DNA from: a virus
Virus record (IMG/VR): IMGVR_UViG_3300042460_001486
Location: 1 to 22,516 of that record
DNA: 22,516 bases
Reading direction: 5' to 3' (one strand)
Part shown: positions 1-16,938 of the stretch, piece by piece
Layout of the letters: each line of letters begins with the position of its first letter
How positions within the stretch are numbered: position 1 is the stretch's first letter
The notes under the pieces: model-generated
What the model saw: only the letters and a program-made list of their open reading frames with translations
Databases searched by the model: none
Told to the model about the DNA's origin: nothing
Made by a program: the position numbers and the translations under genes

Positions 1-373
1 AAACTTTGGTGAAGATTTACAGATTCTTTCTGACTTTATTGAGGCACCAGCAATGTTCTTAAACTATTATATGAGAAGAGATGACATTACTGATTATTCA
101 ATCTTTGATGTTGAGTATGAACCTAAGTTCAAAACAACTCCTTGTGATAAAACAACATTTGATTTCAATATTAACATTAATAATAACTATGATATGGAAT
201 TGTCTATTCATAAAATAGACAGAGTTGATGAAGAGGAATTAGATACTTATAAGTTTCAATTCAAATTTATGGATGAGATTGAAACATTTGAAACAGATAC
301 AATCAAAAACGTTCACTTTTTCATTGGAGATCATATTGCTAAAATCTTAGATAGAAAATTAAAGAATAAGTAA
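1..373 (+). CDS. Unknown phage protein, 3' part only (5' end outside window)
   Basis: The reading frame is open from the window's left edge (first full codon at base 2) to TAA at 371-373, so this is the C-terminal ~123 residues of a longer gene. The ATG at 53 is only an internal methionine and there is no leader before it. The visible part is soluble, acidic and rich in Asp/Glu/Asn/Phe. A Cys-Asp-Lys-Thr-Thr-Phe stretch and an Asn-rich strand precede a Glu-rich region, and the end is basic (Arg-Lys-Leu-Lys-Asn-Lys). I recognise no family. The stop codon overlaps the next start (TAATG), so the two genes are probably translationally coupled and co-transcribed. A beta-rich structural or assembly protein is possible but unsupported. 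Confidence 0.75.
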   Translation, partial: NFGEDLQILSDFIEAPAMFLNYYMRRDDITDYSIFDVEYEPKFKTTPCDKTTFDFNININNNYDMELSIHKIDRVDEEELDTYKFQFKFMDEIETFETDTIKNVHFFIGDHIAKILDRKLKNK

Positions 374-1032
374 TGAGATATCTTGAGAATTTTGTTAATT
401 ATCTAAATGAATCCGCTGAAGACATTACTGATTTATCTAAAGAAGAATTAGATGAATTACTTATTCCTATTACAGATTTAGGCGTTCAATATACATTTTC
501 ATCACCAAGAGTTATTACTGATGGTGAATTTTCCGGATATAAATCAATGAATATAGTTTTTAGAAACTATTTTCAATTAGGTCCATCTGGTGGATATACC
601 GACCAAATTATTGATGAGAAATTTTGGGATTTCTTAGATGAGTTAATAGCTCTTAAAAATCGTTTAGAAAGTGCTAAAGTTTCTATCGGTACTAACTGGA
701 GACATCACATAGTTGTTACTTTTATACAAAAAGCTAAAGTTGAGGGTGATTTATTTACAATACAAAAGTTGTATAATGATATGAATCTAAGAACCAACGC
801 CTCAAAGAGTGATTTTACAAATAATATGACTAAGAATTTAGATAAAGAAAATTTAAAAATCACTGTTAGATGTAATGGTGGTTTTGGATCCTCTGATTAT
901 ACAGATAGAAAGTGGAATGGTCTTTTTAGAGGTATAGATTTTTCTAATTTTAATCTAGAAAAAGAAATTACTGAAGATAGATTTGGTGGTAAATCAGCTG
1001 TTGTTACAATTACACTTAAAAGCAAATCATAA
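373..1032 (+). CDS. Unknown 219-aa protein with capsid-targeting-like N terminus
   Basis: The start is fixed by the one-base overlap with the upstream stop (TAATG). The N terminus reads MRYLENFVNYLNE-SAED. This Lys/Arg-aromatic leader ends in Leu-Asn-Glu before Ser and resembles the T4 capsid-targeting sequence cut by the prohead protease after (I/L)-x-E. If cut there, the leader would be 13 residues and the mature protein about 206. The rest is soluble: an acidic helical stretch (residues ~14-35), then mixed alpha/beta sequence with a conserved-looking Phe-Trp-Asp-Phe-Leu (~79-83). The C-terminal half carries Gly-Gly-Phe-Gly and Arg-Phe-Gly-Gly-Lys. No enzyme motif is recognisable. Packaging into the capsid is an inference from the leader only; it could equally be a minor virion or early protein. 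Confidence 0.8.
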   Translation: MRYLENFVNYLNESAEDITDLSKEELDELLIPITDLGVQYTFSSPRVITDGEFSGYKSMNIVFRNYFQLGPSGGYTDQIIDEKFWDFLDELIALKNRLESAKVSIGTNWRHHIVVTFIQKAKVEGDLFTIQKLYNDMNLRTNASKSDFTNNMTKNLDKENLKITVRCNGGFGSSDYTDRKWNGLFRGIDFSNFNLEKEITEDRFGGKSAVVTITLKSKS

Positions 1033-1033
1033 T

Positions 1034-1044
1034 TTAATATATAA
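1034..1044 (+). promoter_or_regulatory. Putative late-type promoter box TTAATATATAA for the fibre-like gene
   Basis: TTAATATATAA lies 22 nt before the ATG at 1067. It sits inside a 15-mer (1031-1045) that recurs exactly at 14919-14933, also just upstream of a start codon. It resembles the T4 late -10 element TATAAATA. The function is inferred from position and recurrence. Confidence 0.45.
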
Positions 1045-1066
1045 GTTATAAAAATAAATAAGTCAA

Positions 1067-2560
1067 ATGTCTCATATATTATTAAAGAAAGTACAAGATA
1101 ACTTGATATCTGCTCCAGCTTCAAACTACGTTAAATTTTTCAGCAACGATAGTGATGGTGGTCTTTTGTATTATATGAATAGTTCAGGTGTTGCTACACC
1201 TATTGGTTCTTATAATCCAATTATAGATACTACATATTCAAATTTGTATTCTTTATATAGTTCTGATGGTTTTGCTACTGGTTCTTATTATTATATAAAT
1301 GACTTTCAAACTATTTATGAGCAACCTGATTTTTATTTTGATGATAAACCTAAAACAGTTTTAAGTCTTACATCCAGTACATCTTATCCAATTGTTGTTT
1401 TAGCTACTTCAAAAAATACCTTAGCAGTTGATGCTTATCAACCTGATTATCCAAAAGATAAAATTAAATATGATTTTACTTGGAACGAAACAGAGTTTGG
1501 TAATCCGGCTAAAGGTAGAATCACTGAAAGAATTGATGTTGATGGTAATAGAACAGACTATGATCATAGAACTATAAAATTCAAAAGATATCAAAACTAT
1601 GAAAGAGATTTACAACTGAATGGTTTCATCAATAATTGGGATTGTATAAGTGGAACGGTTAGTGGTACTGCTACGACTTTTATGTCGGAGCTTTCTATTG
1701 GAGATATTATAATTTTAGATTCACATAGTGTTTGGGGTGGTGATAAAAGTTATACTATTGGTTTAAAAGTTAAAACTAAAGTTAATGATACTACAATTAC
1801 TGTAGAAGTTGATAGTTTATATACTGGTGGTGTTCCTTCTACTGTCTTATTAAATAATGGTTCTCAAATAGCACCAACGAATTATACATTTGGTGTACCA
1901 ACAACACCTCTTTTGACTTTCCACTCAACAATTCCTACCGGTGATTTTACTAGTTATAAAGAAGTTTATTTTGGTCAATTTGATGATAATGATTTTGATG
2001 ATCTTTATACGTTTCAAGTAGGTGGTACTAGTGTGAATAATTATATAGGAAATTATTCTCAAAAGTATTTAAGTGGTTCTTATAATAATACTTTGATATT
2101 ATCAAATAATGTTTTTACTAATCCTTATTCTAGTTATAATAAATTGGAGGGCGCTTGCTATAATAATCATTTTGAACAACCTGCTAAAAACAATATAATA
2201 TATGCTGGTAGTGATTTCTTTAATGGTAATAATTTTAATAATAATATAATAAATGGTCCTTTTAATAATAATATAATAAATTGTTCTTTTAATAATAATA
2301 TAATAGGTAATATGCTTTATAATTCATTTTATGGTGAATTTTATCATAATTTTACTGATATGAGTAGTATTTTTCGAAATAACTCTATAAAATGTGAAGT
2401 TAGTAATTTAAATTTAATGGTAGGATATTTTACCGGTGGTTTACCTACACATATTTATGGAACGTATAGTTGTGATATAATTTTAACTTCGGGATTGGAT
2501 GTTAAATTATCTTATTATAACGGATCTAATGCTTTGACTGTTGTTGATATTACCGCTTAA
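1067..2560 (+). CDS. Tail-fibre-like structural protein with Asn-rich beta-helix repeats
   Basis: This 497-residue protein probably belongs to the virion surface or tail. The first ~45 residues fit a layout common at the start of phage tail and fibre proteins: a short polar leader, Ala-Pro-Ala-Ser-Asn-Tyr-Val-Lys-Phe-Phe, Asp-Gly-Gly-Leu-Leu-Tyr-Tyr, then a Ser-Gly-Val-Ala-Thr-Pro-Ile-Gly turn. The middle is Thr/Ser/Gly/Tyr-rich beta sequence. Residues ~340-440 form an Asn-ladder region typical of right-handed beta helices, including three tandem FNNNIIN-type nonapeptides (~390-416). The C terminus is again beta-rich. There is no catalytic motif, signal peptide or membrane span. The gene follows a promoter-like box, and its stop overlaps the end of a convergent gene. 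Receptor binding is likely for this kind of protein but not shown. It could also be a baseplate appendage. Confidence 0.7.
   Translation: MSHILLKKVQDNLISAPASNYVKFFSNDSDGGLLYYMNSSGVATPIGSYNPIIDTTYSNLYSLYSSDGFATGSYYYINDFQTIYEQPDFYFDDKPKTVLSLTSSTSYPIVVLATSKNTLAVDAYQPDYPKDKIKYDFTWNETEFGNPAKGRITERIDVDGNRTDYDHRTIKFKRYQNYERDLQLNGFINNWDCISGTVSGTATTFMSELSIGDIIILDSHSVWGGDKSYTIGLKVKTKVNDTTITVEVDSLYTGGVPSTVLLNNGSQIAPTNYTFGVPTTPLLTFHSTIPTGDFTSYKEVYFGQFDDNDFDDLYTFQVGGTSVNNYIGNYSQKYLSGSYNNTLILSNNVFTNPYSSYNKLEGACYNNHFEQPAKNNIIYAGSDFFNGNNFNNNIINGPFNNNIINCSFNNNIIGNMLYNSFYGEFYHNFTDMSSIFRNNSIKCEVSNLNLMVGYFTGGLPTHIYGTYSCDIILTSGLDVKLSYYNGSNALTVVDITA
2234..2314 (+). repeat. Three tandem 27-bp repeats (FNNNIIN coils)
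   Basis: Three copies of TTTAATAATAATATAATA followed by a variable end start at 2234, 2261 and 2288, a 27-bp period. Each encodes nine residues, FNNNII plus three variable residues, consistent with stacked rungs of a beta helix. The DNA is almost identical between copies, which suggests recent duplication or ongoing slippage. Confidence 0.8.
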
Positions 2561-2832
2561 TCATTCATAAAAGAAATAACTAAGTCTAAGTTTTCTCTAT
2601 TAAATCCATCTGGTAAAGGTTTTCCACCTTGTTTTAGATAATCACTATATATATTATTGTATTCGTCTATTGTATAGAATCCATTATCAATTTCTGATAG
2701 AATCACATTTGTATCGTGAAAAGAAACAGTTTTATTTTGTAACCTTGTTTCACCATATGCTGGTCCAATTGGACCAACTAATTCAGTACCTGATACTTCT
2801 TCGTTAATAAACTGTTTGAATGATTTAATCAT
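2557..2832 (-). CDS. Unknown 91-aa protein with a strong capsid-targeting-like N terminus
   Basis: The N terminus MIKSFKQFINE-E is the closest in the window to the T4 internal-protein leader MKTYQEFIAE: basic residue, aromatic, Gln-Phe, then Ile-x-Glu. Cleavage after residue 11 would leave about 80 residues. The remainder is small and acidic, with a Gly/Pro-rich turn (Val-Gly-Pro-Ile-Gly-Pro-Ala-Tyr-Gly, ~19-27), and ends Phe-Met-Asn-Asp. There are no cysteines and no recognisable domain. The start overlaps the end of the upstream minus-strand gene by 8 bp, so the two are coupled. The 3' end overlaps the convergent fibre-like gene by 4 bp with no terminator between them. Packaging as an internal protein is inferred from the leader. 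Confidence 0.75.
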   Translation of the reverse strand: MIKSFKQFINEEVSGTELVGPIGPAYGETRLQNKTVSFHDTNVILSEIDNGFYTIDEYNNIYSDYLKQGGKPLPDGFNRENLDLVISFMND

Positions 2833-3286
2833 TTTTTGATTCTATTTTTTCAAAATATTCATCTTGTTCTTCTAATGAATATTCATCTTTCTTAATGTTA
2901 TATATTAAATTATAAAGGAACTTATCATGTAATTTATGATGTTCATCATGAATCATAGTTATTTTACAGGTTTCTTCCTCAAAATTGTTTTCAATTTTAA
3001 CTATTTCCATTCCAAACTTACCATTTCTATCGTGTAGATTACAAATAACTTTGATACCATTTTCAAGTAATTCTAAAATCTTACTAAAAGTAGTGTTTTT
3101 AGATAAATATAAGAAGTCTTTTAAGTCTTCTTTTTTAGTAGTTGATTGATATAATTCTAAAAAGTTAATCTCTCTCTTAGTTAGAGTCTTTCTTTTATTG
3201 ATTTTATCCTTTATCTTATTTAATTCCATATCCTTAATAGATTCTTTAAATAAATAGTACTTAATCATTCTTTCAATTTTTCTCAT
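2825..3286 (-). CDS. Unknown 153-aa charged protein, possibly starting at an internal Met
   Basis: This is a Lys/Glu-rich, mainly helical protein. Residues ~20-45 form a basic segment (Asp-Lys-Ile-Asn-Lys-Arg-Lys-Thr-Leu-Thr-Lys-Arg-Glu), followed by a more globular centre (Ile-Cys-Asn-Leu-His-Asp-Arg-Asn-Gly-Lys-Phe-Gly). A His/Asp/Glu-rich stretch (Met-Ile-His-Asp-Glu-His-His-Lys-Leu-His-Asp) could bind metal but matches no family I know. The ATG at 3286 gives MRKIERM. The second Met (base 3268) would give MIKYYLFKE-S, similar to the leader of the neighbouring gene (MIKSFKQFINE-E), so the true start may be there. The gene is divergent from the tape-measure-like gene and coupled to the 91-aa gene downstream. 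Confidence 0.72.
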   Translation of the reverse strand: MRKIERMIKYYLFKESIKDMELNKIKDKINKRKTLTKREINFLELYQSTTKKEDLKDFLYLSKNTTFSKILELLENGIKVICNLHDRNGKFGMEIVKIENNFEEETCKITMIHDEHHKLHDKFLYNLIYNIKKDEYSLEEQDEYFEKIESKND

Positions 3287-3308
3287 ACAAATATAATACT
3301 TTATTAAT

Positions 3309-3319
3309 TTATATATTAA
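3309..3319 (-). promoter_or_regulatory. Putative promoter box TTAATATATAA for the minus-strand pair
   Basis: On the minus strand TTAATATATAA lies 22 nt before the ATG at 3286, the same 11-mer and nearly the same spacing as at 1034 and 14922. The divergent gap 3287-3367 therefore seems to carry one box per direction. Confidence 0.42.
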
Positions 3320-3333
3320 GAAGTATTTGTTTA

Positions 3334-3344
3334 TTTTATATATA
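3334..3344 (+). promoter_or_regulatory. Putative promoter box TTTTATATATA for the tape-measure unit
   Basis: This TATATATA-type box lies 23 nt before the ATG at 3368 in the divergent gap. It is less exact than the TTAATATATAA copies but at the same distance. Confidence 0.35.
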
Positions 3345-3367
3345 CATTGTAAAATTTATATTATTTA

Positions 3368-6300
3368 ATGGATAAGAAGTTACTAGATAGTTTAAGTAAT
3401 TTGTCTTTAGCACTAGAAGACATTGCTGCCGCTCTTAAAGATAAGAGTGAGGCACAGTCTGCTACCGCAAAAGCCATGAAGGGTGGAGACTTTGTTAAAG
3501 AAATCAAAGAAATTAATGTAGGTGTTAAAGCCTTACAAAAAGATACTAAACAAATCTTAGCTAATCAACAAACCATTATGGGTATGGCTAAGAGTAAAGG
3601 TGGTAAAAAAGAAAATGTCGCTGAAGGTTTAGGTAAAGATAAAACGGCTCAAAAGAATTTCAAAGAAGGTCTCGGTGTTATCTTACTTATTGCTGTTGCT
3701 GTATTGGCAATTGGTGTTGCTTTTCTTTTAATTGGTAAAGTTAATTTCTTATCAGTTATTGCCTTGTCTATAGCTCTGCCCTTACTGGCTATAGGATTTG
3801 CTAAAGTACATAAGTCATTAAAAGAAGTAGGTTTTGATGCTAAAAAAGATGCTAAAAACTTTATAATAGCCATAACTGCTATTTCTGTTGGTATAACCGC
3901 CGCTTCTTGGATATTATCAATGATTACTCCTTTATCGTTTAGTAAGTTCTTCACAGCTACATTTATTGCTTTGACTTTTGCTATGCTTGCGCCTTCAATT
4001 TTCAAGTTTTTAATGGCATTTAAAAAAATGTCGTGGTCTGATTTGATAAAATCTGTTGTAGGTTTTATTATTATCTTACCTGCTATTGCCTTGGGTATAG
4101 CATTTGCTTCTTGGGCTTTTCAATTGATTAAGCCAATAGGATTTTCTCAGTTCTTAACAGCTGTTGGTATAGGTATCGTATTCGCTATTATATCATTTGG
4201 TATTAGAAAATTATTAAAATCATTTAAGGGTATCGGTGTTAAAGATTTAATGGAAGCTGTTATTTTCTTACCTTTAATATTACCGGCTATTGCCTTAGGT
4301 ATTGCTGGTGCTTCATATGCTTTTCAATTGATTAAACCAATTGGATTTATCCAGTTTTTAACTGCGGTTGGTATTGCTATAGTTTTTGCTGTGATATCCT
4401 ATGGTATTAGAAAATTACTAAAATCTTTTGAAGGTTTGAATCCGGCTACTGTGGCAGTTGCGGCTATAATGCTTCCTATTTTGTTGGTAGCCGTTTCATA
4501 CGCTATTGCTTATTCATCAGTTGCTTTAGGTAAAATAAAACCAATTAGTTTTTCTCAATTCCTAACGGCTATTGGTGTTGCTGCGGTTTTTGTTGTTCTT
4601 TCTTTTGGTATTGCTAAAATAGTAAATGGTATTAGAAGAATGAACTACTCGGATTTACCTAAAATACCAGTATTTATGGTTCTGGTAGCAATAGCTATAA
4701 CCGCATCTTCTTATATTTTAGCAATGGCTAAGGTTATACCTGCGGCTACGTTATTAAAGATAGTACTATATGGTATTGCTTTGGCTATTGTTGCTGCCTC
4801 TATAGGTGGTGTTATGGCTTTATTTAAAAAAATGAAAGTTGGTATTAAAGATGCTCTTATGGGAACTCTTTTAATAGTTGTTATTGCTGTTGCTGTTATG
4901 GTATCATCTCATATTTTAGCATTAGGTAATTATAAAAACTATCCTGATTGGAAATGGGCACTTGGAGTTGGATTATCTTTAATCGCATTTACTCCGGCTA
5001 TTGTACTATTAGGAGCTATCGCCATGTCTGGATTTGGTGCTCTTGCTATATTAGCTGGTGCTGGAATGGTTCTTATAGTTGCGGCTACTATTACTGCTGC
5101 TTCTTATATACTTGCTGCTGGTAAGTATGGTAATTATCCACCTTTGTCTTGGTCGGCTTCTGTTGCTATTTCTATGGCGGCATTTACTGCTGGTATGGTT
5201 GTCCTAGGTGCTCTTATTATAGGTACATTTGGAATTGGTGGTCTTATGTTAGCCGCTGGATCCGAGGCTGTTTTAACAGTAGCTGAAACAATTGTACAAG
5301 CATCTCTTATTTTAGAAAAAGGTAAATATACTGGTGGTCCTACTTTAGCTTGGGCAGGTGGTATAGCTTTAGCTTTAGGTGCTTTTGCTCCTGTTTATGC
5401 TATGATGATGGCAAATTCAATACTTTCATTATTTGGAGGTGGTGGAGTTGGTCCAGATGATTTTGCTACAGCTATTAAAACAGTATCTCGTGGTATAGTT
5501 GATGCTGCTGGTTTCTTTGCTGAAAATAAAGCCGCCTTTATTAATGGTCCATCTAAAGAATGGTCTCAAGGAGTAGGTTTAGCAATTGGTGCTTTTGCTC
5601 CTGTTTATAAAATGTTGGAAGATTTCCCGTTCAGTGGTGGTCAAAAAATGAGCGCGGCTATTATAACTATTTCAAGAGGTATTATTGATTCTGCTAATAT
5701 ATTTGCCGCAAATAAAGCTACCTTTGATGAAGGTTATCCTTCTGAAAATTGGGGTAAAGGTGTAGGCGCGGCATTGAATGCTTTTGCTCCTGTCTTTAAG
5801 TCTCTTAGTGAAGATACAGGTTGGTTTACTTCAGGTGATGAGGTTATTGGTAATATGTTGAAAGGTATTAAATATATTACTGCTGCTTTAGTTTCTTCTG
5901 GTCTTGCTTTCTTTAAGGCTGGTGATATTTGGGGTTCTTATCCAAGTGAACAATGGGCCAGTGGTGTGAAATCAACTGTTGTTGGATTTATGGACATTTT
6001 CCAAGCAATAGAAGATAAGGGTCTTACAATAGCTAGATTTACAATAAATTCTATGGTTTTAAGAAGTGCTATATCTAATATATCTTCTTCGGCTAAAATG
6101 CTTTCTCAAAGTGAAAAATATTTTAAATTTAAGTTAGATCCTTCTTGGGTAATGAATTTGTCAAAAAATGTTTTGCCTTATGCCGCATTAACCAGTCAAC
6201 TTGATAAAATACTAGGCTCTGATGAAAAATCAACGCTAAAACAAGGAGGTTTCTTAGGGTTTGGTCAAACAACAACAACAACAACAGTTAGAAAAATGAA

Positions 6301-7231: not shown

Positions 7232-7260
7232 ACAAATTAATATTAAATAATATAATTAAT

Positions 7261-7707
7261 ATGGCAAATAAAATTTCTTTTTTTAAAAAAATAAAAATAT
7301 TTAGAGAATTTAGGAAAATTCTTAAATTAAATAAGATCGAACTAGAACAAGTTTTTGGTGCTAGAATTGATAATGCTTATAGAATATATAATGTTCTTAA
7401 TATACCTGCTGAAATGATAGGAGAACCTTATAATCTTAGAAAGTCTGATATTGATAAACTGGCTGAGACATCTATAAGAGAATATACCGTTAAGATTTCA
7501 GAGTATTTAGACTCAAAGGGATTAAAAGAAATGTATGATTTTTATGAGGTTAAAAAAGTTGATAAATATTCATATCTTGTTGTTTTAGGATTTTCACTAC
7601 CTAACGACACATTTAGAAGTAATAAGTATTATGATAATTTAAGATATAGAGTAATTCCAGTTGTTTCAGTTATATCTTTAATTTTATTACTTATTTTACT
7701 TTTTTAA
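7261..7707 (+). CDS. Unknown 148-aa protein with C-terminal membrane anchor
   Basis: The N-terminal ~40 residues are very basic (Lys/Arg/Phe/Ile-rich). The middle is soluble mixed sequence containing Asn-Leu-Arg-Lys-Ser-Asp-Ile-Asp-Lys-Leu. The last ~18 residues form a single hydrophobic span (Val-Ile-Pro-Val-Val-Ser-Val-Ile-Ser-Leu then Leu/Ile) that ends at the stop codon, so it looks tail-anchored with the body in the cytoplasm. There is no signal peptide, lipobox or lysis-protein motif. It follows the tape-measure-like gene by 29 nt with no terminator, so it is probably in the same transcript. A role in membrane association or lysis is possible, but only the topology is visible. Confidence 0.72.
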   Translation: MANKISFFKKIKIFREFRKILKLNKIELEQVFGARIDNAYRIYNVLNIPAEMIGEPYNLRKSDIDKLAETSIREYTVKISEYLDSKGLKEMYDFYEVKKVDKYSYLVVLGFSLPNDTFRSNKYYDNLRYRVIPVVSVISLILLLILLF

Positions 7708-7729
7708 GTAAACTTTCACCACTACAGAA

Positions 7730-7740
7730 CTTATAAATAA
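7730..7740 (+). promoter_or_regulatory. Putative late promoter box containing TATAAATA
   Basis: CTTATAAATAA contains an exact T4-type late -10 octamer, TATAAATA (7732-7739). It lies 20 nt before the ATG at 7761, in a 53-nt gap otherwise free of genes. Confidence 0.5.
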
Positions 7741-7760
7741 AAAATATAAATTCTAAAAAT

Positions 7761-8192
7761 ATGGATAAATTTTATGAGGTATCAGAAGACGCAATCGCAA
7801 GATTTTATGAAGTCTTTAACAAAAAGTCCTTCCCAGTGAGTATTAAATTCCAATTCGTAGGTTGCGAAAAACAAAAAGAACTTATCAAAGTAACAAAGAT
7901 TCCGGATCATTTTGCTTTTGTTCTTCAAAAAGAAATCTTAGTTTCTATTAATGATGACTTAGTTAGTGTTTTTGATGATGAATCGATTGTAATTTTAATG
8001 GAACAAGAAATTGATAAAATCAATATCAACATTGAAACTGGTAAAATCAAGTTTATTAAAACTGATTTAAATACTTTCTCAGCTATTGTTAATAAATATG
8101 GTGTTGAAAAAGTAGCAAGAGCTAATAAAGTTGAAGAGCTTTACCAAGAACAAAAGAAAGATGGTAAAGTAGAAGATGAATTTATCGCTTAA
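7761..8192 (+). CDS. Degenerate phage-metallopeptidase-like protein (possible pseudoenzyme)
   Basis: This is a 143-residue soluble acidic protein. The segment Leu-Met-Glu-Gln-Glu-Ile-Asp-Lys-Ile (~93-101) sits where phage putative metallopeptidases carry HExxH. It is followed, as in that family, by a Gly-Lys-Ile-Lys strand, an Asp-Leu-x-x-Phe helix and Val-Asn-Lys-Tyr-Gly. Here the expected zinc-binding histidines read Gln and Lys, and no His precedes Asp in the later motif; only the central Glu remains. If the comparison holds, the fold is kept but zinc catalysis is lost. The C-terminal ~25 residues are a charged tail (Glu-Glu-Leu-Tyr-Gln-Glu-Gln). The gene has its own promoter-like box and is followed after 27 nt by the 224-aa gene. 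The family link is from memory of the motif order and is tentative; a tail-assembly chaperone is an alternative given its position after the tape-measure-like gene. Confidence 0.7.
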   Translation: MDKFYEVSEDAIARFYEVFNKKSFPVSIKFQFVGCEKQKELIKVTKIPDHFAFVLQKEILVSINDDLVSVFDDESIVILMEQEIDKININIETGKIKFIKTDLNTFSAIVNKYGVEKVARANKVEELYQEQKKDGKVEDEFIA

Positions 8193-8219
8193 TAAAAAAT
8201 AAAATAAATAAAATTATAT

Positions 8220-8894: not shown

Positions 8895-8910
8895 TAAATT
8901 AGTTAATTAA

Positions 8911-8941
8911 AAAAAACCTCTGTTTTCACAGAGGTTTTTTT
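8911..8941. terminator. Bidirectional intrinsic terminator between convergent genes
   Basis: A perfect 13-bp stem (8911-8923 with 8928-8940) has core CCTCTGT/ACAGAGG and a TTTC loop. A-tracts and T-tracts flank it, so it can terminate both the plus unit ending at 8894 and the minus gene ending at 8945. Confidence 0.9.
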
Positions 8942-8944
8942 ATT

Positions 8945-11900
8945 TTAATAAATTGGAGTTATTGGTTGAAATGGACCTATTAAATCAATATAAGTAGTTG
9001 GTTCCGTTAAATCTTTAAGACCTCTTATTTCATAATTCTTTTTATCTCTATAAATTAAACCATAACCATTGTCTGAGGTAACTTCAATCACAATAAATGG
9101 ATCTATATTAGAATCAATTGTAAAATTAAAAGGTAATATTGGATTTGAATTATTGCCTTTCGGTGAGTAAACTTCTAACGTATTTGAATCAATAGGAATG
9201 CTAGATGGTGGCATTGGATTTGAATTACCACCTATCTGTGGGTAAACTCTTGTATCATCTGGTTTATTAATTTTTCTAAACTCCTTAATAGTTTGTACTG
9301 GTTCATAATTTATTTCTTTCCATTCGGTTATTTTTAACCAATTGTCACTATCATTTATTGGTGGTATGATAGAACTAGCAGTAGATGACATAGTTCCTAA
9401 TCCACTATAAACAAAAACATCTCTGTTATATTCAACCGTGGTAGTTACTGAATATGAACCACCCGAAACCCAGCTTGTTAAGTTTTCATACTTTTTCGGA
9501 TTTTTAATTTTATTACCGTCAACTTGTGACTCGTATAATTTACCGTAGTATGAAATTTTATCACCAGTATTATAAGTTGTAAATGGTGCCCATTCTTTAT
9601 ATGTTTTATAAGTTCTTATTGTTATATCAAAATAATCAGGTAAATCAAGATTAGATCCATTAAATGGTTTAGGTGGTGTTAGTAATCCTGTTGGATTTTT
9701 ATCAGCACCAACACCATCTACTATTGAATAGAAATCAATTACACAGTTATATACGGTTGATCCACTATTAATAGGCATAAGATAAACTTCATTCAATTTG
9801 AATGAAATTGGTGTCATATTTTGTCTAATATTAATCATTTGAATATCATATGATGTGTGTGTTATTTCAGTTTGATTTTTGAAATAAGCTCTACCTGTTA
9901 TGTCTAATATCTTATGAGTTAAAGGTATAATATTTCTTTTTAACCAGTATTTAAGACCTTGTAATTTAATAATTACCTCATCAATTGAATAATTAATGAT
10001 ATTATTTCCATCTTTATCAGTTATGTTATATGTTAAGTTAAACATTCTAGTTTCTTCATAATCATCATTAGGGAAGTTATTTGTAATGAAGTCACTTTCA
10101 GTCCAACCCTCAACCGTATTATCAAATATATCAGGTATTTCCTGCTTAAATAATTTTAAGAATTTTTCAGACTCTGGATTTATATTTCTATAATACTCAT
10201 TTAATTGTAAATCGTTATAACCAAAAAAGTTAATAGCATTAATAATTGATTTATAAGCACCGATATAAGGATATATCAAGTGTTTCATCATTAACATTTC
10301 TTTTCTCTTCTTATTAAGATAAGTCCAATCAATACCACCTTCTAAAACATCATAGTCTTTGAAAATAAATACTTCATTTGGTGCTATTAATTTACCAACA
10401 TTGCCCAATTCTGTTTTGAATCGTATATCCTCAATCTCAGTTTGACCATAAGTTATGAATCTTCCAATTTCTCTATCAATTACGTTAATATCAAATTTAC
10501 AATACGTTGTATTTCCTGAAGTTGGATAATTCGAAATTAAAGTACTTTCAGTAAATAAATAATCATTTATTCCTAAGAAATCAACAATAAGAGTTTTATA
10601 AAATACACTCCTAATTTTAAAAACTGAACCATTATTATGTGAGATATACTGATTCTTTTTATTCATATTATCTTTTATGTAAACGGCTATTAGTTGTCCT
10701 TCTTTAAGACCTTTTTCTGTAAAGTATTCAGATGAGTTTGTATTTAATTTTATCAAACCTCTTTTATCTGGTCCATTTGGATCTAAAGTTTCTAAAGTTA
10801 TAAAAGTGTTATTAGTAGATGTTGAATTAATTGATAAAGAGACATCTTCTTTTTTATAAAGCTGTAATATCGATCTTATTGCTCCTTCATCATCAGCTCT
10901 AAATCCTAAGAATAATTCTAAAGGTTCTGGTGATGTTGATATATTTGTTTCGTCATCAATATAACTTAATGGGTAGTAAACCTCATCAAATATTGTTTGT
11001 TGATATTCCGGAGAATCTAATTTTGTTAAATCTTTATTAGGCTTTTTATTTAAAACAACCGTTGGTAAAGGTTTAGGTCCTGTGTATGAATAACTACCTG
11101 AATTAGTTAACTGAGTTCCTGAGAAGTCATAAATAAAGAATTCTGGTGATACATCAGAATACCATTTCCAATAGTATTCGACTCTTGCCTCTTGAGAAAA
11201 ATTCTCTCTTGGTTTTCTTAAATATTCTTTAGTTTTTAACCATAAACTATCATGTGGTACATAATCTGGATTTAATGTACCATATCTATTATCTTCTGAT
11301 ATAGGAACCGATGGTACTATTTCAGGTGTTATTGTGCTATTAAGTGTAACCTCAACCTCTATTATAGAATTTAATCCTGGTTGTATAGTCCAAATTGATT
11401 TTCTTTCAGGATTATAGATTATTCTATCAGTCATCGAAGTCATTGGATTGATATTAAGAGATGTTCCATCTACTGGGTTAATAACCACTATAGCACTAGA
11501 TCCTTTGGATGACATGTAAACACTTCCGTCATATTGATTTAATACTAAATAACCATAATTACCAAGATAAGTTGTAAATCCTACATTATTTGTAGTTAAA
11601 TCAATTCCTCTGAAAGCTGTTGATGAGTCAGATAAATCCATCTGACCAGTTAAATTATTAAATATAATGTCTGAGAATCCAGTTACTGATACGCCTGATA
11701 TAGAAACTGTTAATCCATTATCAATTTTCCAAAGATTTGATGTATCGTAAGCATAAACTGACTCATTTACTGGTTCATAAAATAAAGAACCCGTTAAACC
11801 TGATATGCCATAAGATGTTTGTATAGTTCTATTTGTATTTACTCTTATAACTTGACCTGATACTCCAAAAGTTTGAATATACATATCACCTTCAAATTCA

Positions 11901-14866
11901 TTGAATGCCATTTTTCCGGTTGATACAACACCTGACGGGAAGTTTGTTGTAGATCCTGATAAAGTAGTATAGTAATTGTTACTTGAGTTATAAATATCAA
12001 CTGTTGGTGAATTTATAAAAGAAATATACATGTCACCATTTGATGTGTTAAATTTAACATCATCAATAATCAATGATGTATTTGAGAATGTCATCGATTT
12101 AACTACTGTGTTTATTAAAGGGTCAATAGCGTAAATGATTTTATTAGAAACACAATATAAGTAGTTATTAACTGGATTAAATTCCATTTTTTTACTTTGT
12201 GTATTTCCTGGTAAAGGAATATTTGTTAAGTAATCTGTTAAGAACGCATCCATTACTACAACCTCATCTCCAAAAGCATAAATTGCGTTAGATAATTGAA
12301 CATAAGATATATCAACTAAATTATTAGTACCATTATATTGTTGTAGGTTATATGTATTTGTTGTGTAAACATTTGGATTATAGGCTAAACTAAACGCACT
12401 ACTAAATTGTTGTAAATTAAATGGACCGCCACTTGAACCTCCAGTTGGTCCAATAATTGGATCACAAGCAGTTTGTCCAAATCCAATTTCAAATGCTAGT
12501 GTTATAAAAGCTGATGAGTTACAAGTGGGGTCTTTAGTGCCCCAGAATGGTCCTTGGTAACTTAAATTCATAACTTCTGGATCTAAAAACTGAACATTAA
12601 ACTCTGTATTATTCCAAGTGTGAAATGTGTTATTTATGGAAAATGCCATTCCGGTTGCGAAACCAGCATCTTCAAATGAATAAGTACCTGAAGCAGAATC
12701 TGGTAGTCTAACTTCATTAGATGTTATAACTACACCATTATTTCCTTTAATTTTTTTAGTAATTATATAATCACTCATACCTGGTAAAGAACTCTTACCG
12801 GTTGTTATAGTATAATCTAGTCTTCTATCTAATTTTTTAACATCAAATTTTAATAAATTGTGTATATTAGTTACTAATATTCCATAATTTGCTAAGTATG
12901 ATCCATGTTCATCTACCCAAGCTTGTAATGTAGCTGGTATATTAGGATATTGTGAATAAGTTCCTGTTAAATATATTGTACTTTGGTCATAAGTATCACT
13001 ATTGATTTCTAATGATAAGTAACTACCCATATCATTGAATAAAACTTTTGAGTGTTCTATGTAATAATTAGCAGTTGTTCCAACTTTAACATCATTTACA
13101 TACATTTCAACATTTGGATATTCTGTGTGTAATTTTATTGAGTTGTAAAAAGGTGAAGTAAATGATCCAATATATTGTAAATCGGCTATTATTCCTAATT
13201 TTTGAAGATTGATATAATTTCTTGTTAACCAAGTTCTAAGAGTTCTATCAATAGTTCTTACCATGTCTGGTCCGATACCACTATAAACCCATGCTATTTC
13301 TTCTTCAAATACTTGTTTATTTACTATTAATTTAAAACCATATTCATCTAAGTCAGTAAATACTATATTAACTGAATGATTTGATGAGAAGTTATAATTT
13401 AATTCCTTTGTTAATGGTTCTGATACTTGAATTAGTCTTTCATATGTTTGTTTAATATTACCAATAGAATATGTTGGACCAACTGATCCTTGATAGTAAT
13501 TTACCTCTACATATTTACTTGGATACATCAAATCAGCCTTCAATTGACCTTTTTCGTAAAAAAGTTCAACATTGAATGATTTTAAGTCACTTGCGTATTT
13601 TTCAGCAGCAGATGCTAAAGTCACTTGCGAGCTTTGTGTATAGCCGTGTGAGAAATAAAGTTTATCAGTAGTTAGATAAACTTGACAACTTGATAAGAAT
13701 TCCGGAGTTATTTGTTGGTCAACTTTTACATGAGAAATTATATCTGTCCAATATGTTGGCTCATTTGTCGGTGTTATAAATTGTGTCGATTCTAAAGCAA
13801 AACTTTGAGTATAAGCTTGAATACACTCATATATTTTATTATTAAATAATACCTGAGATTTAACATCATAAAATGTTTGTTGACTATTTCCGTAAAATGT
13901 TGGAATACTAGCGACTGTAAAGAAATTTTGATTATTATTAGAGCCAATTACTTTAAATTCTCTACCTGACTTTAAAACTTGTGGTACTAGTCCACCAAAA
14001 ACTAATTTATTGATTTCAGGTGTAGACCAAGTTCCAGCAGTGTATTCAAATGATAATGAACCTTCATATATTTTAGGTAAATCAGTTTTTGAAGCAACTT
14101 CTATAATCAAATCTTGATTATTATCTATATTTGAAGTGTAGTATTCAAAAAATCTAGTATCTGTTATTTCTTTTTCTAAAACAGTGACCGTTTTATTATT
14201 AAACTCACTATTTATAATATTAAGTTTTTTTCTTTTGTATAATTTATCATAAAAACTTGGTTCATTCCAAGCTGATAAATTATCTTTATAAGAACCATCT
14301 ATGTAATTATAAACACCTATTGCGTTAATGGCTGATATAGATTTGCCTAAGTAAGTATCATTGTATATGTATTCATTATAATAGTTAACTTCAAATGTGG
14401 CGTTATCCACAGAGCTTATAATCATTATAGCTCCTTTTTTTACAGATACAACGGTATATGTTTGTAATGGATTAGTGAATTCTAAAAATGACGAATTGAA
14501 TCTAATAATAGTTCCAATTGGAAAAAATATATCAAACTTTTCACCATAAATCCATTTTGAATAAAAGTTAGGATCGTTGTTAATAGGTTCAATCTTTGTT
14601 ACGGATTGAGTAAAATATTTACCCTCGTAAAAGTCAAATCCAAATTCATTGAATAACTGAAATTTACTCAAATACATTTCACCTGGTTTTTCAAACTCAA
14701 AAGATGGAATCTTTTCTAATGTATAAATACCCGCAGTTTTAAACGTATCGTTTGAGTTCTCATGAAACATTATAGATCCTTCGAATCTATCATTTATATC
14801 ACTATAATTAAAATTTAAATTATCCCCTTCTTTATTGAAAAATAATAAGTTCTTATGATTTGACAT
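8945..14866 (-). CDS. Giant baseplate/tail-tip structural protein with beta-propeller and sugar-binding-like modules
   Basis: This 1973-residue protein is probably part of the baseplate or tail periphery. Residues 1-850 are long beta-rich sequence, with a Trp/Tyr-rich module at ~333-374 (Ile-Tyr-Glu-Cys, then Tyr-Trp-Thr-Asp). Residues ~852-1172 carry repeated units with hydrophobic strand, Phe-Asn-x-x-x-Gly/Asn, Met/Val-Tyr and Asp/Asn-Pro turns, as in YVTN/NHL-type beta-propellers. Around 1516-1562 and 1638-1668, a Tyr-Pro-Tyr-Ile-Gly helix, Phe-Phe-Gly-Tyr-Asn-Asp and Trp-Leu-Lys-Arg-Asn-Ile-Ile-Pro-Leu recall wedge or tail proteins such as P2 gpI and T4-like wedge subunits. Residues ~1759-1799 and ~1811-1846 resemble carbohydrate-binding modules (Trp-Ala-Pro-Phe-Thr-x-Tyr-x-x-Gly-Asp, Gly-Lys-Leu-Tyr-Glu-Ser). 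It is a single-gene minus-strand unit between its own promoter box and a terminator. No T4 counterpart of this size is obvious to me. Confidence 0.68.
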   Translation of the reverse strand: MSNHKNLLFFNKEGDNLNFNYSDINDRFEGSIMFHENSNDTFKTAGIYTLEKIPSFEFEKPGEMYLSKFQLFNEFGFDFYEGKYFTQSVTKIEPINNDPNFYSKWIYGEKFDIFFPIGTIIRFNSSFLEFTNPLQTYTVVSVKKGAIMIISSVDNATFEVNYYNEYIYNDTYLGKSISAINAIGVYNYIDGSYKDNLSAWNEPSFYDKLYKRKKLNIINSEFNNKTVTVLEKEITDTRFFEYYTSNIDNNQDLIIEVASKTDLPKIYEGSLSFEYTAGTWSTPEINKLVFGGLVPQVLKSGREFKVIGSNNNQNFFTVASIPTFYGNSQQTFYDVKSQVLFNNKIYECIQAYTQSFALESTQFITPTNEPTYWTDIISHVKVDQQITPEFLSSCQVYLTTDKLYFSHGYTQSSQVTLASAAEKYASDLKSFNVELFYEKGQLKADLMYPSKYVEVNYYQGSVGPTYSIGNIKQTYERLIQVSEPLTKELNYNFSSNHSVNIVFTDLDEYGFKLIVNKQVFEEEIAWVYSGIGPDMVRTIDRTLRTWLTRNYINLQKLGIIADLQYIGSFTSPFYNSIKLHTEYPNVEMYVNDVKVGTTANYYIEHSKVLFNDMGSYLSLEINSDTYDQSTIYLTGTYSQYPNIPATLQAWVDEHGSYLANYGILVTNIHNLLKFDVKKLDRRLDYTITTGKSSLPGMSDYIITKKIKGNNGVVITSNEVRLPDSASGTYSFEDAGFATGMAFSINNTFHTWNNTEFNVQFLDPEVMNLSYQGPFWGTKDPTCNSSAFITLAFEIGFGQTACDPIIGPTGGSSGGPFNLQQFSSAFSLAYNPNVYTTNTYNLQQYNGTNNLVDISYVQLSNAIYAFGDEVVVMDAFLTDYLTNIPLPGNTQSKKMEFNPVNNYLYCVSNKIIYAIDPLINTVVKSMTFSNTSLIIDDVKFNTSNGDMYISFINSPTVDIYNSSNNYYTTLSGSTTNFPSGVVSTGKMAFNEFEGDMYIQTFGVSGQVIRVNTNRTIQTSYGISGLTGSLFYEPVNESVYAYDTSNLWKIDNGLTVSISGVSVTGFSDIIFNNLTGQMDLSDSSTAFRGIDLTTNNVGFTTYLGNYGYLVLNQYDGSVYMSSKGSSAIVVINPVDGTSLNINPMTSMTDRIIYNPERKSIWTIQPGLNSIIEVEVTLNSTITPEIVPSVPISEDNRYGTLNPDYVPHDSLWLKTKEYLRKPRENFSQEARVEYYWKWYSDVSPEFFIYDFSGTQLTNSGSYSYTGPKPLPTVVLNKKPNKDLTKLDSPEYQQTIFDEVYYPLSYIDDETNISTSPEPLELFLGFRADDEGAIRSILQLYKKEDVSLSINSTSTNNTFITLETLDPNGPDKRGLIKLNTNSSEYFTEKGLKEGQLIAVYIKDNMNKKNQYISHNNGSVFKIRSVFYKTLIVDFLGINDYLFTESTLISNYPTSGNTTYCKFDINVIDREIGRFITYGQTEIEDIRFKTELGNVGKLIAPNEVFIFKDYDVLEGGIDWTYLNKKRKEMLMMKHLIYPYIGAYKSIINAINFFGYNDLQLNEYYRNINPESEKFLKLFKQEIPDIFDNTVEGWTESDFITNNFPNDDYEETRMFNLTYNITDKDGNNIINYSIDEVIIKLQGLKYWLKRNIIPLTHKILDITGRAYFKNQTEITHTSYDIQMINIRQNMTPISFKLNEVYLMPINSGSTVYNCVIDFYSIVDGVGADKNPTGLLTPPKPFNGSNLDLPDYFDITIRTYKTYKEWAPFTTYNTGDKISYYGKLYESQVDGNKIKNPKKYENLTSWVSGGSYSVTTTVEYNRDVFVYSGLGTMSSTASSIIPPINDSDNWLKITEWKEINYEPVQTIKEFRKINKPDDTRVYPQIGGNSNPMPPSSIPIDSNTLEVYSPKGNNSNPILPFNFTIDSNIDPFIVIEVTSDNGYGLIYRDKKNYEIRGLKDLTEPTTYIDLIGPFQPITPIY

Positions 14867-14886
14867 CTATTATTATAAACTTTTAC

Positions 14887-14897
14887 ATATATATTAA
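14887..14897 (-). promoter_or_regulatory. Putative promoter box TTAATATATAT for the 1973-aa gene
   Basis: On the minus strand TTAATATATAT lies 20 nt before the ATG at 14866, one mismatch from the box seen at 1034, 3309 and 14922. Confidence 0.42.
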
Positions 14898-14921
14898 TTT
14901 ATCTTTTCTTAGTAGGTGAAT

Positions 14922-14932
14922 TTAATATATAA
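14922..14932 (+). promoter_or_regulatory. Putative promoter box TTAATATATAA for the cargo-like unit
   Basis: TTAATATATAA lies 24 nt before the ATG at 14957, inside a 15-mer (14919-14933) identical to 1031-1045. Both copies precede plus-strand genes that begin a unit. Confidence 0.45.
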
Positions 14933-14956
14933 GAGTATCAAAATAAACTAATAATT

Positions 14957-15355
14957 ATGAAACACATTAAAAAATTTAATGAAACCAAAAAAGAAGACAA
15001 GATTGAAGACCAAGAAGTTCTTTTTAATGCTGAAGTTTTAGTAGATAAAGATGAGAAACCATCATTTACGACCGATGTCGAAGACCAAGAAAAAGTTAAA
15101 AAAGAATTTGATAAACTAAGAAAAGTTAAAAGCTTTGAAAACTTTACAATTGAAGTTGAGGTTGAGGTTAAACCTGAAGGTGAAGAAGAATCTGAAGAAG
15201 AATATAACACTCCACATTCTTTTGAACCTGAGCAAGAAGAAGAGGGTTGTGGTTGTCAAGACTGTGATTGTGGTTCTGAAGAAGAATCAAATCCAGAAAC
15301 TGATGTTAAAGTTATGAATATAGCTGACTTTATGAACTCAATTGCTGGTCAATAA
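14957..15355 (+). CDS. Acidic 132-aa protein with CTS-like leader and Cys cluster
   Basis: The leader MKHIKKFNE-T resembles a capsid-targeting sequence, with cleavage expected after residue 9. The body is extremely acidic (runs of Glu at ~75-97) like T4 prohead-core proteins such as gp67. Unlike them it carries a compact CGCQDCDCG cluster (Cys98, 100, 103, 105) that could bind a metal. An internal VKSFENFTIE segment (~57-66) looks like a second copy of the leader motif. The last ~15 residues are a hydrophobic-tipped tail (Asn-Ile-Ala-Asp-Phe-Met-Asn-Ser-Ile-Ala-Gly-Gln). It is the first gene of a four-gene unit and is followed after 15 nt by the next. Core scaffold, packaged cargo or metal-binding factor are all possible; only the composition and motifs are certain. 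Confidence 0.78.
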   Translation: MKHIKKFNETKKEDKIEDQEVLFNAEVLVDKDEKPSFTTDVEDQEKVKKEFDKLRKVKSFENFTIEVEVEVKPEGEEESEEEYNTPHSFEPEQEEEGCGCQDCDCGSEEESNPETDVKVMNIADFMNSIAGQ

Positions 15356-15370
15356 ATAAAAATATAATTT

Positions 15371-16132
15371 ATGAAAATTATTAAATTCACAGAATCTGTA
15401 AATATATCAGAATCTCTTAAATATCATTTAGAGAATAATAAACCTATTACTGAAAATATATTCAGACCGGGTTCTGATGCTTTCTATGAAGTAATCAAAG
15501 AAGCAAGAGAGTTATTTGATTTAGGTAGAGTTAATCTATGTGATGTTGATAAAGAATTATACGAATCAACTGATATTGGTAAGTTTGGAATGTACAATGG
15601 TGAACTAGTTCCTTTAGATTTACCAATGGAATTTGTTGTTGAGACAAATCAACCAGCATTTTCTATACATGATGTAACACCTGATTTCAAATATGATGTT
15701 ATGGGTAAAATGGTTACAAATATTAAACCATTAGCTTGGGTTAAAAACGGAGAAGCGGCTTGTACTTCTTTTGAAGGAGAATTTGATGGTCAACCTTGTA
15801 AGTGTAAATATGATGATGGTCAAGATGCTTATGTATTTGAGGCTAAATATCACAATAAAGAAGTTAAGTTAAACTACCCAATGCGTGGTGGTTCTAAGAA
15901 GTATCAAGTTTATGTTAAGAATCCTAAAACTGGTAAGGTTAAAAAGATAGCATTTGGTGATGTTCATGGTGGATTAACAGCTAAAGTTAGTAATCCTAAA
16001 GCTAGAAAGTCATTTGCGGCTAGACATAACTGTGATATGAAGAAAGATAAAACTAAAGCAGGATATTGGGCTTGTAGAATTAATAAATATGGACACCTTT
16101 GGGGTGGTAAAACTTATCCCGGATTCTGGTAA
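15371..16132 (+). CDS. Two-domain phage protein: YRPGS-type N domain and RHNCD/YWxCR C domain
   Basis: Residues ~15-90 match a module I recognise from hypothetical proteins of T4-like marine phages: Asn-Ile-Phe-Arg-Pro-Gly-Ser (29-35), a Glu-Ala-Arg-Glu-Leu helix, Thr-Asp-Ile-Gly-Lys-Phe, then Tyr-Asn-Gly-Glu-Leu-Val-Pro-Leu-Asp. Residues ~176-253 contain a second recurrent phage module: Tyr-Val-Lys-Asn-Pro-Lys-Thr-Gly-Lys-Val-Lys-Lys, Arg-Lys-Ser-Phe-x-Ala-Arg-His-Asn-Cys-Asp (212-222), then Tyr-Trp-x-Cys-Arg (232-236). The middle has a Cys-Lys-Cys-Lys pair (143-146). The leader MKIIKFTE-S (or Ile-Ser-Glu at 12-14) is CTS-like. Neither module has an assigned function that I know. The fusion, the leader and the neighbours suggest a virion-associated protein. 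The stop is two bases before the next ATG. Confidence 0.82.
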   Translation: MKIIKFTESVNISESLKYHLENNKPITENIFRPGSDAFYEVIKEARELFDLGRVNLCDVDKELYESTDIGKFGMYNGELVPLDLPMEFVVETNQPAFSIHDVTPDFKYDVMGKMVTNIKPLAWVKNGEAACTSFEGEFDGQPCKCKYDDGQDAYVFEAKYHNKEVKLNYPMRGGSKKYQVYVKNPKTGKVKKIAFGDVHGGLTAKVSNPKARKSFAARHNCDMKKDKTKAGYWACRINKYGHLWGGKTYPGFW

Positions 16133-16134
16133 TT

Positions 16135-16938
16135 ATGAAACACTTAAAAACATATAAAATATTTGAAAACTTATTTTTCACAATCAGTGACGAGAGAAGA
16201 AAAAAGTTAATTGATTTTATAAATAGTAGTTTAGACGGAACTGATATGGATTTTTCTTCTTGGATATATCAAAATATAATTAGAGGAAAAGAAGAACATA
16301 TAGAACTTAATAATTTTATTCAAAAATTATCCCCTAGTTGGAAAAAAATCCTTGATGAATACTTATCTAAGTATAAAAGTGGAGTAATGAAAATTGTACA
16401 GGATGATCAAAATGAGTGGTTTGGTGTAAATTATAACTCAAGTCTTAAACAAAAAGAAGTAATAGGTGACCAGGAGATAACAAAAAACTTTTATGTAACA
16501 TTTGAGAAAAGCGAAGATAACCTGAAAAGATGGTTCAATGGACTCGCAACTCTTATAAGTGACTTTTACAAAGCTTGTACAGAAGGTGAATTAAAAAACT
16601 CGGCAATTTCTTTCAAGTGTGGATATGATGCTAAACATTTTATTGAAGATAATGACCATCTAAAGTTTTATTGGTATAAAGATGATGACAAAAATAAAGT
16701 ATTAGAAGTATATAATAATTGGTTGAAGAAAACTGGTATACAAACTAAGAAAAGAGCTTATGATTTTGGAATAGATACCGCAAAAGGTAGAGATAAAAAT
16801 AGCTTTGGTCTAATGGTCGCAAATAAAGTGAATGATCAGTTTCAAAAACTTAAATCACAGTATGGGAAAAAGTTTACATCCGAACAATATGCGGATTACA
16901 TAATAGATATGTTAAACAAAACAAAGTTTAAAATATGA
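16135..16938 (+). CDS. Unknown 267-aa protein with CTS-like leader
   Basis: The leader MKHLKTYKIFE-N has the spacing of the T4 capsid-targeting sequence and an exact (I/L)-x-E end at residue 11. The body is soluble and mixed alpha/beta, with many Trp/Tyr/Phe residues. Around 180-190 is a His-Leu-Lys-Phe-Tyr-Trp-Tyr strand, followed by a Trp-Leu-Lys-Lys helix and an Asp-Phe-Gly-Ile-Asp-Thr-Ala-Lys-Gly-Arg segment. The pattern hints at an enzyme-like fold, but I cannot assign a family or catalytic residues. The start lies 2 nt after the previous stop and its stop overlaps the next start by 4 nt (ATGA), so translation is tightly coupled. It is the largest of the CTS-like proteins and a reasonable candidate for an injected effector (inference). 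Confidence 0.8.
   Translation: MKHLKTYKIFENLFFTISDERRKKLIDFINSSLDGTDMDFSSWIYQNIIRGKEEHIELNNFIQKLSPSWKKILDEYLSKYKSGVMKIVQDDQNEWFGVNYNSSLKQKEVIGDQEITKNFYVTFEKSEDNLKRWFNGLATLISDFYKACTEGELKNSAISFKCGYDAKHFIEDNDHLKFYWYKDDDKNKVLEVYNNWLKKTGIQTKKRAYDFGIDTAKGRDKNSFGLMVANKVNDQFQKLKSQYGKKFTSEQYADYIIDMLNKTKFKI

Follow-up and report, generated by a model that had tools for sequence, protein, structure and literature searches.

Why should unrelated proteins of a phage begin with the same short peptide? This question is raised by virus record IMGVR_UViG_3300042460_001486 of IMG/VR, the whole of which (22,516 bases) is the stretch of DNA analysed here, referred to below as the window. A preliminary description of the window had pointed to six such leaders, likened them to that of T4 internal protein III (IPIII; MKTYQEFIAE), and proposed that they deliver cargo into the phage head. 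All six leaders were confirmed in position and frame, and the observation holds at a far larger scale than was noted there. Our analysis makes it very likely that the leaders are T4-type capsid targeting sequences (CTS) that are cut by a prohead protease: the protease is present, the pattern is genome-wide, the residue spacing of T4 is kept, and recognisable enzymes are rarer among tagged proteins. The nearest named DNA is that of LR745206.1 (634,780 bases) and LR756502.1 (642,428 bases), and the window is assigned to a Mahaphage-type huge phage. The accessible text of PMC7162821 gives 634, 636, 642, and 735 kb for the four largest curated genomes, places them in the Mahaphage clade, and predicts Bacteroidetes as hosts. 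An 82-kb virus record (hereafter G004) includes the whole window, with all but 1 of its 22,516 bases matching.

On the plus strand of the window, a protein of 219 residues with a body of unknown type (373..1032) carries the leader MRYLENFVNYLNE (373-411), followed by S at the position after the terminal E (P1'). The LR745206 protein at 163438, a homolog (36% identity, E 1e-38), starts with MKHLTQFFDYIKE, then S; the protein matched no Pfam family, and a PHROG search gave one weak match only. On the minus strand, the 91-residue protein at 2557..2832 begins with MIKSFKQFINE (2800-2832; P1' E), which conforms to the T4 register (F-x-x-F-I-x-E), and SGTELVG follows the leader in each of its orthologs, which read MIKKFYQFINE, MKIKKFNDFINE, and MAIKSFKSFNE, the last lying behind an overlong naive start. 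Also on the minus strand, the gene at 2825..3286 (153 residues) has the leader MRKIERMIKYYLFKE (3242-3286; P1' S). The preliminary description had noted that a start at the second methionine would give MIKYYLFKE, with E at residue 9; the first methionine (E at residue 15) is the likelier start because the E of the orthologs (MKIKKILKYYLFGE then S, MGFKKLIKYYILGE then S) stands at residue 14.

The remaining three tagged genes lie on the plus strand. An acidic, Cys-rich protein of 132 residues (14957..15355) is led by MKHIKKFNE (14957-14983; P1' T), a leader type (MKHIKKFNE, MIQIKKFNE, MKHIKRFNE, MKIKRFE, MKIKKFNE) seen in 41/43 homologous loci, many of which are overlapping contigs. The two-domain protein of 253 residues at 15371..16132, whose C-terminus is phrog_7595, has the leader MKIIKFTE...NISE (15371-15412). 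MKIIKFTE does stand where it had been reported, but the invariant site of the family is not FTE (residues 6-8); it is S13-E14 (ISE then S), identical in 30 aligned homologs, and several orthologs are without the MKIIKFTE part. The protein of 267 residues at 16135..16938, again with an unknown body, carries MKHLKTYKIFE (16135-16167); P1' is N or S among close orthologs, and the leader type is retained even at 30% overall identity (MRHIKSYKIFE in locus L081). Gene 7261 (MANKISFFKKIKIFRE), which matches the loose rule used below, was rejected as a tagged gene: its 52-53%-identical homologs begin with MNKKISIFKKIKLFRSF and MKRLSLFKRLSLYRLY, without E at that place.

To count leaders, genes in complete relatives were called naively as longest open reading frames, so that gene starts are naive as well, and the expected numbers come from treating each internal methionine as if it were a start and applying the same rule there. 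The strict rule was composed after seeing lists of N-termini and is thereby tuned to LR745206 and LR756502; its control uses the identical rule. It matched 123/917 genes in LR745206 (3.6 expected) and 144/944 in LR756502 (3.5), about 13-15% of the genes of these two nearest genomes, as well as 27/985 in the 735-kb phage (3.8), 46/893 in the 636-kb phage (3.0), 10/83 in G004 (0.2), and 4/20 in the window (0.0). Shuffled N-termini gave means of 5.8 for LR745206 and 5.6 for LR756502. With the loose rule, 174/917 (44.7 expected) and 190/944 (45.8) genes were matched in these two genomes, and 6/20 in the window (1.0, from 135 internal methionines). In counts made free of any rule, the most frequent first five residues are MKYLK (25), MKHLK (11), MKHIK (9), and MKYLR (8) in LR745206 (n=917) and MKHLK (30) and MKYLK (14) in LR756502 (n=944). 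Across 240 related, partly overlapping viral loci, 162 of 2133 distinct proteins (near-identical copies kept) match the strict rule, compared with 4.7 expected. The genome-wide search, which had been put forward as a way to find the full cargo set, thus returned a large excess over the internal-methionine control in all four complete Mahaphages.

The strict and loose rules miss T4's own CTS (strict 2/253 vs 2.2 expected, loose 15 vs 9.5) because the T4 tag has an inner E, and a separate T4-register rule (aromatic-x-x-aromatic-[ILV]-x-E) was therefore composed from MKTYQEFIAE only, yet also after those lists had been seen. In T4 it finds 3/253 (0.3 expected); two of these are IPII and IPIII, and the other is a naive start located 5' of annotated 61.4. 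It matched 24/917 genes in LR745206 (1.2 expected), 23/944 in LR756502 (1.7), 48/985 in the 735-kb phage (2.8; p 7e-42), and 22/893 in the 636-kb phage (0.7), and some tags of the 735-kb phage stand in the exact T4 register (MIKKYIQFINE then A, MKKYIEFINE then E). Genes matching either the strict or the T4-register rule number 137 in LR745206 (4.7 expected), 157 in LR756502 (5.2), 68 in the 735-kb phage (6.7), 61 in the 636-kb phage (3.7), 10 in G004 (0.9), 5 each in Lak-B8 (2.5; all Lak-B8 counts cover 520 of its 551 kb), T4 (2.5), and pT24 (1.0), and 2 in HTVC008M (0.8). The T4-register rule gave no match in HTVC008M or pT24, where a relaxed register gave 4 (1.5 expected) and 13 (3.6), respectively. 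T4 targeting residues are placed at CTS positions 4 and 7, and processing at I-x-E, in the available part of PMC9026906; a rule for positions 4 and 7 matched 95/917, 127/944, 35/985, and 48/893 genes in LR745206, LR756502, the 735-kb phage, and the 636-kb phage (10.1, 8.1, 7.4, and 6.6 expected). The leaders preserve the spacing of the targeting and processing residues of T4, in favour of the likening to the IPIII leader.

The leaders of the 267 strict tags measure 8-14 residues, as read by a rule that covers the first 20 residues only, and longer propeptides are possible elsewhere. With E fixed by the rule, P3 is mostly I, F, L, or Y, and the residues that follow E are mostly S, N, A, G, or E, with Ser at P1' in 98/267 tags compared with 7.4% after 6605 internal [ILFY]xE sites. 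The flavour of the tag varies by lineage, as Lak-B8 and, weakly, pT24 illustrate. Several Lak-B8 genes (MK250027; 232285, 317872, 199564, and others) share a different N-terminus, xxKK.LYE-SIM..., in which conservation extends beyond E and which may be a longer leader.

Could the shared N-termini reflect needs of translation initiation or of the messenger RNA instead of a peptide? Some codon bias does exist at tag position 3 in LR745206, where TAC accounts for 12/29 Tyr codons vs 15% genome-wide, but codons at other tag positions vary about as in the genome (e.g., Lys AAA 37/49 vs 74%), hydrophobic residues and E recur at fixed spacing, and no upstream 8-mer is common to most tagged genes. We regard this explanation as extremely improbable. 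A DNA-level signal as the source of the N-termini was rejected on the varying codons, the lack of a common upstream element, and the T4 late promoter string, which is not enriched.

The shared leader had been described as sitting on unrelated proteins, and the strict-tagged bodies indeed fall into 107 clusters in LR745206 and 113 in LR756502. The alternative of a single large set of paralogs, whose bodies diverged while the N-terminus stayed conserved, would find some support in the small families that exist (largest clusters of 6 and 21) and in the clustering of tagged genes, which are same-strand neighbours at above-chance frequency (40 vs 11.8 and 53 vs 16.0). However, paralogy was rejected as the source of the tag since the bodies fail to cluster; they span about 60 to 1284 residues, include RNA ligase and nucleotidyltransferase families, and have gained, lost, or swapped leaders between orthologs, all of which makes a common family highly improbable. 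Among 429 reciprocal best pairs of LR745206 and LR756502, the strict tag is found in both members of 29, in one member of 32, and in neither of 368. An RNA ligase (PF09511 E 8e-21; phrog_562 E 1e-56) carries MKLFKYIEFINE then N in LR745206, and its orthologs in the 636- and 735-kb phages begin at the body with no leader. A transfer RNA (tRNA) nucleotidyltransferase (PF01743, E 1e-29) starts with MILKKYKMFLE then S and has an untagged ortholog in the 636-kb phage, and a primase-like protein (phrog_849, E 7e-27 and 9e-26) differs in its leader between two phages, MIIKKYIKFINE against MKYLRTYE, on bodies that are 84% identical. For 38 pairs tagged in both members, mean identity is 0.60 in the leader, a value raised in part by the rule itself and by choosing the better of two alignments, and 0.27 in the next 12 residues. 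A small PIKVGDT domain directly follows E in 7/7 distinct contexts, some of them related; this VGDT domain had no match in the 'phages' collection beyond the two LR genomes at 1e-5 and is present in other loci at 1e-4. A VDVQ-motif protein, presumably isochorismatase/nicotinamidase-like by its motif, is tagged in differing flavours in three phages (LR745206 182970, LR756502 207650, LR756501 455943), and its LR756502 copy had no PHROG match.

It had also been considered that the pattern might be equally frequent in clearly cytoplasmic phage enzymes; among recognisable enzymes, this is not the case. The 46 tagged LR745206 proteins of at least 190 residues match 7 Pfam families, several under the curated cut-off, compared with 67 families, some overlapping, for 46 random untagged proteins of that genome (at least 190 residues, not size-matched). 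For LR756502, 45 of the 47 tagged proteins of at least 190 residues (two spanning a fetch boundary were excluded) match 14 families, and PHROGs adds endolysin and HNH families among its tagged proteins. PrkA and radical-SAM proteins of LR756502 were discarded as cargo, being false positives of the strict rule (MNLLNLIKKNFE; MNKIDLFGRE).

If the leaders are cleaved CTS, which enzyme would cut them? The preliminary description had named a gp21-like prohead protease as the gene to look for, and we found one in G004, in all four complete Mahaphages examined, and in further relatives. It is encoded as a protease-scaffold fusion (G004 57681-59804; LR756502 225272-227371; LR745206 198546-200669), with 707 residues in G004 and 699-807 in relatives, the 636-kb one having an overlong called start. 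Its N-terminal domain shows the motifs GEFDHP, VSSR, and YDIVADPGF (the last slightly altered in some), for which T4 gp21 has GELNHP and VSSR in identical order. Matches to PF03420, the gp21 family, were strong in three T4-like phages and below the cut-off in LR745206 (E 1.1e-4) and LR756502 (E 1.8e-5); in a second set, 8/9 records matched at E of at most 1, and 3/9 were above the cut-off. A profile made from 34 protease-domain homologs and compared with PDB returned 5jbl (T4 gp21; E 0.019) ahead of a ribosomal protein (0.31), and phmmer searches of the full-length protease and capsid protein against PDB returned nothing. When the AlphaFold2 model of a homolog's protease domain (predicted template modelling score 0.63) was searched with Foldseek, three 5jbl chains ranked 1-3 (E 1.7e-6 to 3.9e-6), with the next match at 0.24. 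The layout of the fusion recalls the protease-scaffold fusions of herpesviruses. Besides the fusion, the 735-kb phage shows another gp21-family match at a separate locus, LR756501 11386-11787, with a score below the cut-off.

The scaffold part contains 22-26 [IL]xE sites vs shuffle means of 11-13 (five genomes or contigs), and in G004 it includes ten tandem 14-residue repeats of the YSEYIAENLDKNI type (residues 301-440), with (I/L)AE-N/H. The gene that follows encodes a gp23-like capsid protein. In 40 distinct N-termini of this protein one E is invariant (40/40), with I/L at P3 in 39/40 and N at P2 in 39/40; the site is of the SINE then N type and lies at residue 43 in G004. We read this (I/L)-N-E as the probable propeptide site because T4 gp23 sheds a 65-residue propeptide, as the available text of PMC9026906 states.

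These sites also bear on a further explanation, in which the leader is an uncleaved localisation helix that targets its protein to the membrane or a compartment made by the phage, with the terminal E as a helix cap. The leader is a basic, partly amphipathic N-terminal peptide, and the cargo includes enzymes that act inside the cell. The residues S, N, and D after E are also common helix N-caps. Nonetheless, the same (I/L)-x-E site is found in the scaffold and capsid protein, the spacing equals that of the targeting and processing residues mapped in T4, and several families keep E while the leader varies, with bodies starting right after E. A localisation helix is therefore improbable in our judgement.

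As a T4-type CTS, the leader would be an N-terminal, basic peptide of 8-15 residues with hydrophobic or aromatic residues at the T4 targeting positions (4 and 7, or aromatic-x-x-aromatic-I-x-E), terminating in (I/L/F)-x-E. During head assembly it would dock the protein on the scaffold core within the prohead, and the scaffold-fused gp21-type protease would then cut after E, which would both release the body and clear away the scaffold. DNA and body would stay together in the head, and on infection the body would pass into the host, where it may act as an effector. Alternatively, the tagged proteins could be core or structural parts of the prohead that are mostly destroyed or retained and not injected. 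T4 core proteins too are cut at LxE sites, according to the accessible part of PMC9026906, and most tagged bodies are unknown; the bodies are diverse, however, including enzymes, unlike a conserved core, and they turn over fast. Reciprocal best hits in the 636-kb phage exist for 12/123 tagged vs 158/794 untagged LR745206 proteins, and in the 735-kb phage for 13/123 vs 155/794. We consider a core or structural role unlikely.

Several results weigh against the interpretation of the leaders as cleaved CTS. Over 100 different tagged proteins per genome is far beyond the number in T4, and tagged enzymes of intracellular type (RNA ligase, tRNA nucleotidyltransferase, primase-like protein) are those least expected in a head; their presence fits pre-delivery and is no proof of it. 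Lak-B8, which has the protease, is without this tag (strict 4/553 vs 1.4 expected, T4-register 1 vs 1.0, loose 53 vs 26.9). The T4 late promoter string is not enriched upstream of tagged genes compared with the others (8/123 vs 49/720 in LR745206; 6/144 vs 44/727 in LR756502). With regard to the protease, PF03420 scores of the non-Lak Mahaphage proteins stay under the Pfam cut-off, one 508-kb record gave no PF03420 match though a protease-like locus (L301) came from it, and the protease model has a mean predicted local distance difference test (pLDDT) score of 64. At the N-terminus of the capsid protein, three more E columns are conserved at 95%, so that conservation leaves the cut site unproven.

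Sites of this kind are also found inside longer proteins. In the family of the 15371 protein, E157-A158 (15839-15844), conserved at 90% or more, forms a second boundary of xE then A ahead of the phrog_7595 domain; the window's protein has, immediately in front of E157, about 64 inserted residues that most aligned orthologs lack, and its predicted structure (pLDDT 52.7) was not used. In Melnitz, HTVC008M, and several viral contigs, domains of this family or neighbouring ones occur within fusions of 412-1409 residues. Five multi-domain fusions in T4-like phages or viral contigs (L156 3837-6983; L137 1068-5297; L144 9059-10297; L003 6612-8564; L004 1211-3001) combine cytidylyltransferase-like (4/5), DUF5824, DUF5661, VGDT, and phrog_7595 domains, whose apparent boundaries bear (I/L/V)xE-small sites. 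These sites exceed those in shuffled sequences, 3-73 of 1000 shuffles reaching the observed count. It is possible that the five fusions are capsid polyproteins, and the pattern suggests, at lower confidence than for the short leaders, that the 15371 family and the fusions are protease-delimited cargo.

The arrangement is like that of T4 IPI, IPII, IPIII, and Alt, otherwise unrelated proteins with a short, gp21-cut leader, whose targeting residues 4 and 7 and I-x-E processing are described in the available text of PMC9026906, and it resembles T4 also in its gp21-type protease, many-site scaffold, and capsid-protein site. Unlike T4, with its handful of CTS proteins, each complete Mahaphage genome has 61-157 proteins matching either of two rules, the flavours being specific to the genome (MK[HY]LKxY.., MIKK[FY]xxF[IV]xE), and protease and long scaffold form one fused protein, with the tandem repeats noted above in the window's phage. 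The ejection proteins of the phiKZ-type phage SPN3US, many of them in the head, have N-terminal propeptides cut by a gp21-related protease (PMC5694885 and PMC9026906, both in their available parts), comparable to what is proposed for the leaders here; several SPN3US propeptides exceed 100 residues and one only is of T4 length, compared with 8-15 here. DarB of phage P1 is similar to the proposed role of the leaders in that a signal at its N-terminus is enough to carry a foreign protein into the capsid; the accessible text of PMC9024508 concerns one protein with a signal within 30 residues and no shared tag family. The polyvalent proteins of phages and conjugative elements are multi-domain and predicted to be injected early, much as related phages here have multi-domain proteins with xE boundaries, but the available portion of PMC5512222 ascribes their processing to built-in metallopeptidases, whereas the boundaries here match the prohead-protease motif. 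The same portion names virion-packaged RNA polymerase and Toprim primases (moved in conjugation) as early-transferred proteins. A literature search for such tags in huge phages recognised none, with most subscription papers outside its coverage.

Other genes of the window encode a tail sheath (phrog_34521), a tail tube (phrog_45), SbcD, and an HNH protein. An untagged putative phage metallopeptidase lies at 7761-8192 (PF18894, E 1.8e-8; homologs in 24 related loci). Directly after the run of tagged genes, a small untagged gene at 16935-17201 has homologs in 124 related loci, many of them overlapping, and gave no match in the PHROG search.

Taken as a whole, we lean towards the view that Mahaphages deliver dozens to more than 100 different proteins under T4-type CTS, that the tag is a portable module placed on existing genes, including those of RNA and tRNA repair enzymes and of a primase, and that related T4-like phages release several domains from one polyprotein through the same protease sites. 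What is new relative to known T4-type tags is the scale and modularity. If loaded together, the tagged set would be, to our knowledge, the largest virion-delivered protein arsenal, and such a delivery load, if true, would be one reason why these phages need huge capsids and genomes. The tag gives a direct proteomic prediction, in the form of exact new N-termini, and may become a tool in which short portable tags load proteins into very large capsids. For uncultured Bacteroidota phages it would also provide a list of candidates for host takeover and anti-defence, and the shared label would sort a large block of huge-phage genes of no known function into one class, whose proteins travel in the head and reach the host at infection.

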